Assembly (NCBI RefSeq): GCF_030418295.1 | Contig: NZ_JAUHQA010000001.1 | Span: 2,170,001-2,234,000, forward strand | Length of the DNA stretch: 64,000 nucleotides | From: Demequina muriae | GTDB lineage: Bacteria > Actinomycetota > Actinomycetes > Actinomycetales > Demequinaceae | Reading direction: 5' to 3' | Part shown: in pieces, positions 17,893-19,868 of the stretch | How the letters are laid out: each line of letters begins with the position of its first letter | Numbering within the stretch: the first letter of the stretch is position 1 | Notes under the pieces: model-generated | What the model was told of the DNA's origin: nothing | Seen by the model: only the letters and a program-made list of their open reading frames with translations | Databases searched by the model: none | Position numbers and translations under genes: made by a program

Positions 17893-17906
17893 CGGACCTT
17901 GGTCCC
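17893..17906. promoter_or_regulatory. DosR-like palindrome upstream of the flavodoxin gene
   Basis: On the reverse strand the site reads GGGACCAAGGTCCG, matching the mycobacterial DosR/DevR consensus GGGACTWWAGTCCC at about 11 of 14 positions. The 13-mer GGACCTTGGTCCC (17894-17906) recurs exactly at 61412-61424 upstream of cydA. A NarL/DosR-type regulator is encoded at 53332-53949. Confidence 0.5.
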
Positions 17907-17977
17907 GCTGCGGAGCGGGTCGAAAAGTTCATCGCCATGGTGACCAGTCCGCCCGCCGACGTCGTGCGAACACGTAG

Positions 17978-18000
17978 CGTCCCTCCCCGACGGAGGGACG
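17978..18000 (+). other. Hairpin in the leader of the roadblock operon
   Basis: CGTCCCTCC (17978-17986) pairs perfectly with GGAGGGACG (17992-18000) across CCGAC, followed by TCTTGC. Upstream on this strand there is no gene to terminate, so it is either part of the operon's 5' leader (an attenuator or stability element) or the end of a short untranslated RNA. Confidence 0.45.
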
Positions 18001-18085
18001 TCTTGCATTCGCTTGCGCACCAGTTCGGGGTGCGACGGCACTACTGATTCGGGCCTCCGGGTCCGACGGTCCCTAGGAGGGGAAC

Positions 18086-18451
18086 ATGGCAAACGCCACT
18101 GAGACGATGACCACCGTCATGACGATCGAAGGCGCGACGGCGGCCGCTCTTGTCGACTACGAGTCGGGCATGACTCTCGCCACTGCAGGGGGCGGAGTCG
18201 ATCTCGATCTTGCCGCCGCGGGAAACACCGAGGTGGTGCGCTCGAAGATGCGCGTCATGGACTCGCTCGGACTGGACGACAAGATCGAGGACATCCTCAT
18301 CACGCTCGGCAAGCAGTTCCACCTGATCCGGCTCGTCACGTCGCCGAGCGGTCACGGGCTCTTCATCTACCTCGTGCTGCAGCGTGACCGGGCGAATCTT
18401 GCGATGGCACGCCGCCAGCTCCAGTCCGTCGAGCAGTCGCTCTCGATCTGA
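18086..18451 (+). CDS. Roadblock/LC7-type protein 1
   Basis: A 121-residue protein with the roadblock pattern: IEGATAAALVDYESGMTLATAGG (strand-turn-strand), a helix, then HLIRLVTSPSGHGLFIYLVLQRDRANLAMARRQL. Roadblock proteins form dimers that bind small Ras-like GTPases and regulate their nucleotide state, as MglB does for MglA and CvnB for CvnD. ATG 18086 follows a strong AGGAGG. It is the first gene of a four-gene operon with a GTPase and two more roadblock-like proteins. Confidence 0.8.
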   Translation: MANATETMTTVMTIEGATAAALVDYESGMTLATAGGGVDLDLAAAGNTEVVRSKMRVMDSLGLDDKIEDILITLGKQFHLIRLVTSPSGHGLFIYLVLQRDRANLAMARRQLQSVEQSLSI

Positions 18452-18503
18452 TGTCCCTCGCCGTGGCGAGCGGTCGTGATCGCTCGCCCGGGAGGTCGGC
18501 GCC

Positions 18504-19055
18504 ATGTCAGACATTCACAAGATCGTGATCGCCGGCCCCTTCGGGTCAGGCAAGACCACTTTCGTCCGCACCATCTGCTCTGACGCCATCGGCGCTGAGC
18601 GGACGGTCTCCGACGCGACCTCGCGGCTCAAGGAGCAGACCACCGTCGCGATGGACCACGGGACGGCGACCATCGCGGTCGGCGTCGACGAGCGCGTCGT
18701 CACGCTCTTCGGCACGCCCGGACAGGAACGGTTCAGCTTCATGTGGCCGATGCTCGCGCACGGGATGGCCGGGTACGTGCTGATGGTCGACGCGAGTCGG
18801 CTGCAGGCGCAGGCTCAACTGAAGTCCATCGTCCGGCGATTCGGTGCCTTCGCGCCCGGAGCCCCGTTCGTGCTGGCGGTGAACCGGTGGGACCCCTCCG
18901 AGGTGAGCGGCGACGAGCTCGCGGAGTTCGTGGGAGTGCCGCGGCACGCGCTCGTCGCGTGTGATCCTCGCGATCCCGATGCGGTCCATGCGCTGCTTGC
19001 CCGGCTCATCTCCGCCGTCGAGGCACAGGCGATGGTGGGCGGGGTGCACTCGTGA
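18504..19055 (+). CDS. Small Ras-like GTPase of the CvnD/conservon type
   Basis: A 183-residue GTP-binding protein. The P-loop is GPFGSGKTT (11-19), G3 is FGTPGQERF (69-77) in the form used by conservon CvnD proteins, and G4 is NRWD (127-130), where canonical GTPases have NKxD. The SAK-type G5 is replaced by VACDPRD. As in MglA/CvnD proteins it probably switches between states under roadblock control. It is followed, with GTGA overlap, by two more roadblock genes. No kinase gene or DUF742 gene is linked, unlike in Streptomyces conservons. Confidence 0.85.
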   Translation: MSDIHKIVIAGPFGSGKTTFVRTICSDAIGAERTVSDATSRLKEQTTVAMDHGTATIAVGVDERVVTLFGTPGQERFSFMWPMLAHGMAGYVLMVDASRLQAQAQLKSIVRRFGAFAPGAPFVLAVNRWDPSEVSGDELAEFVGVPRHALVACDPRDPDAVHALLARLISAVEAQAMVGGVHS

Positions 19056-19432
19056 TCATCCCCAAGCACGGGCTCTTGGCCGGTGCGCGACTCCGGCACA
19101 CGGTCCGTGGCGTGACTCGAGTCATCATCGCCCGTACCGATGGCATCGCACTCTACGACGACGTTCCGCTCAAGGAGCGCGACGGCGGGGCGGCGCTCAC
19201 CGCTGCGATCCTCGGCCTCGCGGCGACCGCGACGGCGGCCTTCGGCCTTGGCGCCGCGCGCGCATCGTTGACAGTGGGGGAGTCGGGCACCGTCGTGCTC
19301 GCGCCCGTCGATGCGGGCCACGTGCTCGCCATCCTGATGGACGCCGATGCGGATCCGATCGCCGGCGGTGATGCCGTGCTCGACGAGGCCGAGAGACTGC
19401 GTGCGATCTCCGGCATGGTTCGCACGTCGTGA
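19052..19432 (+). CDS. Roadblock/LC7-like protein 2
   Basis: A 126-residue protein beginning at a GTG that overlaps the GTPase stop (GTGA). It has the alternating pattern VTRVIIARTDGIALYDDVP, an Ala-rich helix (AALTAAILGLAATATAAFGLG) and GTVVLAPVDAGHVLAILM, as in roadblock domains. It is weakly similar to the next protein, with which it shares the VIxAxxDGIAxYDD core. Probably a GTPase partner; no N-terminal extension or membrane segment is clear, although the Ala-rich helix is hydrophobic. Confidence 0.72.
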   Translation: MIIPKHGLLAGARLRHTVRGVTRVIIARTDGIALYDDVPLKERDGGAALTAAILGLAATATAAFGLGAARASLTVGESGTVVLAPVDAGHVLAILMDADADPIAGGDAVLDEAERLRAISGMVRTS

Positions 19433-19839
19433 TCGCGCGCGACCGCTGCGCTCACTACGCACAGGAACTGCACGCCCACCCAGGCGTCCACCGCGTGATC
19501 GTCGCGGGTCATGACGGCATCGCCCACTACGACGATGCGGCGCTTGGCGCGCGTGAGCAGGGAGCCGCCGCTGCCGCGACACTTGTGGGCGTCGCGGGGC
19601 TCGTGGCGCAGGCTCTCGGGGTCGACGAGGCCGAGGGTGCCGTCATCTACGGTGCTTCTCGTCAGGTCATCACCCGCTCAGTGGACGGGGAACTCGTGCT
19701 CGTCGTCCTGGCGGAGGCTGGTGAGCGAGGCAACGGCGTCTACCGCGCGGTCAGGCGAGTCGCGGCGGCGCTGGCGGAGGAAGCTGCCGCACGGGGGTCC
19801 GACGACGCACCGCTCAAGGGGCCGAGCACATCGGCGTGA
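19429..19839 (+). CDS. Roadblock/LC7-like protein 3
   Basis: A 136-residue protein starting with GTG overlapping the stop of the preceding gene. The core HRVIVAGHDGIAHYDDAAL, the Ala/Val helix and GELVLVVLAEAGERGNGVYRAV follow the roadblock pattern and parallel protein 2, so proteins 2 and 3 are probably tandem duplicates that may form a heterodimer. An 11-bp-stem terminator overlaps its stop codon and closes the operon. Confidence 0.72.
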   Translation: MIARDRCAHYAQELHAHPGVHRVIVAGHDGIAHYDDAALGAREQGAAAAATLVGVAGLVAQALGVDEAEGAVIYGASRQVITRSVDGELVLVVLAEAGERGNGVYRAVRRVAAALAEEAAARGSDDAPLKGPSTSA

Positions 19840-19853
19840 TGCGCTCGGCCCCT
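19817..19853. terminator. Bidirectional terminator between the roadblock operon and the GH9 gene
   Basis: AGGGGCCGAGC (19817-19827) pairs perfectly with GCTCGGCCCCT (19843-19853) across a 15-base loop. The left arm is inside the last codons of roadblock protein 3. The GH9 gene converges on it and stops 16 bp beyond, so it can serve both transcripts. Confidence 0.7.
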
Positions 19854-19868
19854 CGCGGTGAGTGAGCG

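Follow-up and report, generated by a model that had tools for sequence, protein, structure and literature searches.

A kinase-less MglA-roadblock cassette of Demequina muriae and its highly conserved roadblock-fold protein

Related GTPase-roadblock systems and layout of the locus

Several described bacterial systems join a small Ras-like GTPase to roadblock proteins. The conservons of Actinomycetota (CvnA-D; Group 2 MglA), among them cvn9 of Streptomyces coelicolor and mfp of Mycobacterium, contain a Ras-like GTPase with altered G4 and G5 motifs and a roadblock protein, together with a histidine kinase and a DUF742 protein. Group 3 MglA of beta/gamma-proteobacteria is encoded in kinase-less GTPase-roadblock operons (PMC4316618) and can occur as one mglA with three mglB genes, as in the mgl system of Snodgrassella (PMC11112851), so several roadblocks per GTPase are already known. 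Robl-DUF4388-GTPase operons are found in deep Actinomycetota. In Myxococcus xanthus, MglA acts with several regulators, including roadblock paralogues that divide the labour; MglC is a roadblock paralogue binding MglB (PMC7949163), and RomY, which is not a roadblock paralogue, stimulates MglB (PMC9481161).

The locus compared here with these systems lies in a window of 64,000 nucleotides from Demequina muriae, where four genes at 18086-19839 on the + strand encode one Ras-like GTPase and three roadblock-fold proteins, P1 to P4. P1 (18086..18451; 121 aa) is a roadblock-fold protein according to an AlphaFold2 model and fold search, and P2 (18504..19055; 183 aa) is a Ras/MglA-type small GTPase by Pfam, alignment, tree and fold. 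P3 (19052..19432; 126 aa) is a roadblock/LC7 protein with an Asp-Gly (DG) pair (Pfam PF03259, 5.7e-8), and P4 (19429..19839; 136 aa) is its roadblock/LC7 paralogue (PF03259, 4.8e-7; tree). Direct reading placed a strong ribosome-binding site, AGGAGGGG, at 18075..18082 (+) in front of the P1 ATG at 18086, a GGGAGG site before P2, and GTGA overlaps at both the P2/P3 and P3/P4 junctions. The original prediction of a GTPase set between a roadblock gene with a strong ribosome site and two GTGA-coupled ones was thereby confirmed, and its stand-alone set of one GTPase and three roadblocks was recovered as four open reading frames, with P3 and P4 recognized by Pfam and P1 by its predicted fold.

The gene order P1-GTPase-Robl-Robl and the overlaps are kept in 14 other Demequina genomes (all 14 loci fetched), and purifying selection acts on each of the four genes (dN/dS 0.04-0.27), which argues that the operon is more than a chance arrangement. 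As had been claimed, neither a kinase nor a DUF742 gene is linked to it: none was present among the open reading frames around the operon or as a conserved neighbour of the orthologous loci, in keeping with a GTPase switch that stands alone with its three partners of roadblock fold. A search with Rfam at the gathering threshold returned tRNAs only, with no riboswitch or other RNA element. A defence system was considered and rejected, as PADLOC matched the GTPase only weakly, through its P-loop, and did not match P1, P3 or P4.

The P1 leader contains a GC-rich hairpin, GTCCCTCC-N5-GGAGGGAC, at 17974..18006 (+; direct reading), and its folding is stronger than that of shuffled sequences (z -2.4). 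In the window this hairpin was not scored as a terminator, and a consensus scan of the leader gave no sigma-70 promoter or terminator. GC-rich hairpins also occur in the P1 leaders of L026, L032 and L033, and in some relatives a T-run follows the leader hairpin in an attenuator- or terminator-like manner. A CRP/GlxR-like palindrome (TGTGA-N6-TCACA or close) was seen at about -192 to -214 of P1 in L026, L027, L028, L031, L034, L037, L038 and L039. Taken as a set, the relatives are enriched for such sites (total score 117 vs 100.6 +/- 2.6 for shuffles); the site is missing upstream of P1 in the window.

The GTPase and its separation from CvnD

P2 carries the motifs GPFGSGKTT, FGTPGQ, NRWD and DPR. 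In the orthologue alignment the P-loop GPF[GA][SA]GKTT, the TT of switch I, FGTPGQ, NRWD and DPR are nearly invariant, two orthologues having FGA or FGM instead in G3. MglA proteins of Groups 2-5 share GTPGQ and have Thr in place of the arginine finger (Wuichet and Sogaard-Andersen, PMC4316618), and P2 shows both marks, GTPGQ in G3 and the Thr in G2. In Groups 2 and 3 the G4 lysine is often missing and G5 reads DAR, whose arginine may compensate (PMC4316618). The NRWD motif and missing SAK motif noted in the original prediction were both borne out by the alignment; as oddities they did not stand, since this side of the family is expected to show them. The unusual part is the invariant Trp: NRW is invariant across the genus and does not match the conservon-type NxFD. 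The nearly invariant G1, switch I Thr, GTPGQ and DPR fit Group 2-5 catalysis and the proposed compensation by the G5 arginine. In the reading we lean towards, P2 would cycle between GTP and GDP in the Group 2-5 style (GTPGQ plus Thr), with no built-in arginine finger.

In genome G008 (L029) the G4 aspartate has been lost from both GTPase copies (NRWN and NRWS), and the Sanguibacter protein reads NRWA, which leaves guanine specificity uncertain. The second G008 copy, at L029 5787-6751, is incomplete (GTPase and roadblock, no P1), lies about 5.5 kb off and has the NRWS form of G4. The fold search with P2 returned many Rab/Rho-type GTPases, which confirmed the Ras fold and did not separate subfamilies.

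The GTPase tree (74 rows, unrooted, 23 of them CvnD) disclosed CvnD as a single clade (100/100) with the window GTPase outside it. The window GTPase, its orthologues and the protein of Sanguibacter suaedae formed a clade of their own (98/94). The beta/gamma-proteobacterial GTPases were likewise a separate clade (100/100), and the branch that connects them with the window clade received 89/82 in this unrooted tree. One complete conservon is present in the same genome, about 980 kb from the cassette, with a 1658-aa kinase containing NIT, HAMP and HATPase domains, a CvnB recognized as Robl (79.6 bits), the only DUF742 gene of the genome (C1:1204591) and its own CvnD. A kinase and DUF742 gene elsewhere that might complete an ordinary conservon with the cassette were thus found, but they belong to a separate, complete conservon. 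The position of P2 outside the CvnD clade and the presence of this conservon indicate a variant of the MglA-roadblock module and not a stripped conservon, and the description of P2 as CvnD-like, if a pared-down conservon is meant by it, found no support.

We regard it as doubtful that the cassette is what remains of a conservon, with kinase and DUF742 protein lost from a CvnD/CvnB module that still signals through the resident CvnA and CvnC. Such a history would agree with the 39% identity between P2 and the resident CvnD and with an AU test that accepts the window clade as sister of CvnD (p 0.43), and a CvnD-type second match throughout the same-genus genomes searched makes crosstalk possible. 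Yet the CvnD clade excludes the window GTPase at full support, the signatures differ (P-loop GPF vs GGF, G4 NRW vs NxF), the sole DUF742 gene sits at the other locus, and the resident conservon has no counterpart of P1. Relatives in Sanguibacter and Acidimicrobiales also have P1-GTPase-Robl with no DUF742 or kinase gene in between. The cassette is an MglA-roadblock variant that lacks both kinase and DUF742, has its DG roadblocks as a duplicated pair and includes a hyperconserved P1; compared with conservons, it shares the Ras-like GTPase with altered G4/G5 and the roadblock, and differs in the missing kinase and DUF742, in NRWD in place of NxFD and in the extra P1.

Among the other systems, the Robl-DUF4388-GTPase operons share the GPFxxGKT P-loop, and their GTPases gave the top profile scores after the genus itself, reaching 157 bits vs mostly about 90-106 bits for CvnD; the AU test also accepts them as sister of the window clade (p 0.51). 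Many of these GTPases adjoin DUF4388 and some adjoin roadblock genes. Unlike the cassette, these operons carry DUF4388 (PATAN), which is absent from the genus (none among 41 genomes), and for most of them no P1 was seen within the short segments examined. Group 3 MglA resembles the cassette in its kinase-less operon, and in many beta/gamma loci the GTPase and roadblock genes are followed by a P1 of about 60% identity. Group 3 differs in another gene order, a P-loop that is mostly GPM or similar where the cassette has GPF, GTPases that grouped apart in the unrooted tree, and an added receiver/winged-helix-like protein, which is absent from the operon and its conserved neighbours. The Myxococcus system is alike in combining one GTPase with several regulators and unlike in its Group 1 catalysis with an arginine finger and its motility output.

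P1 and the P3/P4 pair

P3 and P4 score 32.8 and 29.9 bits against Pfam Robl_LC7 (cut-off 23). Both carry the Asp-Gly pair (RTDGIALYDD in P3, GHDGIAHYDD in P4) that marks the GTPase-coupled MglBs of Groups 2-5 (PMC4316618). In the tree they form one genus-specific clade (100/98), so the second and third roadblocks are duplicates, as had been suspected; for L037 and L038 the rows labelled 'P4' hold the P3 gene, taken twice, which leaves the window unaffected. Sanguibacter has P1 and the GTPase with one Robl only.

P1 has no Pfam match in the window, and its 15 orthologues yielded one stray match to DUF726 (E 0.048). Robl_LC7 was not found in the 15 orthologues at E up to 10, nor in distant relatives, and a PDB sequence search gave nothing meaningful. 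In contrast to these sequence searches, the AlphaFold model built from the 15 orthologues (pLDDT 85.7) displays the topology a-bb-a-bbb-a, which is the roadblock order. Superposed on Myxococcus MglB, the model reached a TM of 0.78, as a full-length MglB-like roadblock, and the fold search matched archaeal, bacterial and LAMTOR roadblocks with Z 14-16. The prediction thus places protein 1 within the roadblock fold and, together with the Robl_LC7 matches of P3 and P4, supports the early view of the three small proteins as roadblocks. Unlike P3 and P4, P1 has no DG pair; its strongest invariance lies in helix 2 (GNTEVVRAKMRVM) and at the start of helix 3 (NLAMARRQL).

Of the four proteins, P1 is the best conserved in almost every pair of Demequina loci. 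Relatives about 55-67% identical were found in Cellulomonas, Streptomyces, Amycolatopsis, Acidimicrobiales, many beta/gamma-proteobacteria and Deinococcus, so that the family spans three phyla (Actinomycetota, Pseudomonadota and Deinococcota) at about 60% identity. In public records P1 is annotated 'hypothetical protein', even where the adjoining gene is annotated as a roadblock. The family is new to profile libraries; the literature search covered open-licence papers, and an earlier report may exist elsewhere.

The genes around P1 vary between lineages. In beta/gamma-proteobacteria it often lies behind GTPase and Robl genes, and in L107 a 336-aa protein without a Pfam domain stands upstream in the P1 locus, which, with the MglA and MglB genes, agrees with the account of Group 3 as MglA and one or two MglB accompanied by an unknown protein. 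In Streptomyces it comes last in a P1like-DUF4388-Robl-P1 operon, and in Cellulomonas it is paired with Robl (P1-Robl) and no GTPase gene adjoins. On plasmids of Deinococcus and Comamonas (L246, L248 and others) P1 has no annotated GTPase or roadblock alongside. A longer and different P-loop GTPase-like gene (377-537 aa) was seen near P1-type loci of Acidimicrobiales and Peristeroidobacter (L106 9359-10489, L167 7825-9435).

As P1 is also found without a linked GTPase, its main partner may not be P2. Two readings, neither of which we favour, give P1 the leading part. The first is tentative: P1 could be the founder of an unrecognised roadblock family and a common docking hub to which modules (MglA Group 3, the Demequina cassette, DUF4388 operons) were attached repeatedly, with P1 and not the GTPase setting the cellular target. 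The second, which we hold to be unlikely, makes P1 the real core with a conserved job of its own, such as scaffolding at some conserved structure of the cell, and takes the GTPase and roadblocks for lineage-specific additions. It would account for an identity between the window and distant loci of 56-64% for P1 vs 34-49% for the linked GTPases, for a dN/dS in one pair of 0.039 for P1 vs 0.17-0.23 for the neighbouring genes, and for the company P1 keeps elsewhere (DUF4388 and Robl in Streptomyces, Robl alone in Cellulomonas, none on plasmids). In Demequina, however, P1 never occurs without the GTPase and the two are absent together, so that in this genus its role is bound to the module, and its repeated loss means that it is not essential.

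Presence of the cassette and its proposed role

P1 is present in 16 of 42 genus genomes, and it and the GTPase always co-occur where both were searched, an all-or-none pattern. The sister species G014, whose IclR is 99.6% identical to that of the window genome, is missing the cassette as a unit: blastn of the window against its locus L236 gave an absent extent of 17907..19868, and positions 17906 and 19869 are only 86 bp apart there (L236 12178-12265), leaving a clean empty site. Three more near pairs differ similarly. The site is mostly constant, with DCC and flavodoxin genes on one side and GH9 cellulase, IclR and LeuC on the other. On a tree of IclR and LeuC, 7 presence/absence changes are needed, at least 6 of them forced by well-supported branches; the GTPase tree is broadly concordant with it at the level of subclades, which makes repeated loss likelier than repeated gain. 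The cassette may be exchanged through recombination in its flanks. All four genes are one removable, expendable unit, separate from the resident conservon.

An mglAB-like controller of motility or polarity, acting on flagella or type IV pili, appears very unlikely to us, even though MglA systems of other phyla steer type IV pili or gliding and T2SSE-type secretion ATPases occur in every genus genome. Flagellin is missing from the window genome, and across the genus the cassette is present or absent without regard to it (both in 3 genomes, cassette only in 13, flagellin only in 10, neither in 16); the T2SSE-type ATPases, being universal, leave the patchiness of the cassette unexplained. Flagellin also differs between near sisters, with no match in the window genome and two in G014.

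We lean instead towards the four genes forming a compact, self-contained MglA-type GTPase switch, with P3 and P4 as regulators and P1 as scaffold or adaptor. The DG pair of P3 and P4, its absence from P1 and the analogy with MglC and RomY lead us to propose that P3 and P4 would regulate P2 as roadblocks with GAP-type activity, most likely as a P3-P4 heterodimer or as alternative homodimers. P1 would then be a non-GAP scaffold or adaptor linking the switch to a conserved partner, comparable with MglC and RomY beside MglB.

Actinobacterial Ras-like GTPase switches are thus not all conservons, and the locus brings to light a very conserved family with the roadblock fold that goes unrecognized by profile libraries. 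Since the difference between sister species is exactly this cassette of 2 kb at one site, the function of the cassette is directly testable with natural or engineered plus/minus pairs. This small, four-gene, kinase-less system also lends itself to asking why a GTPase needs several roadblock partners, a question raised as well by Ragulator and MglB/MglC.
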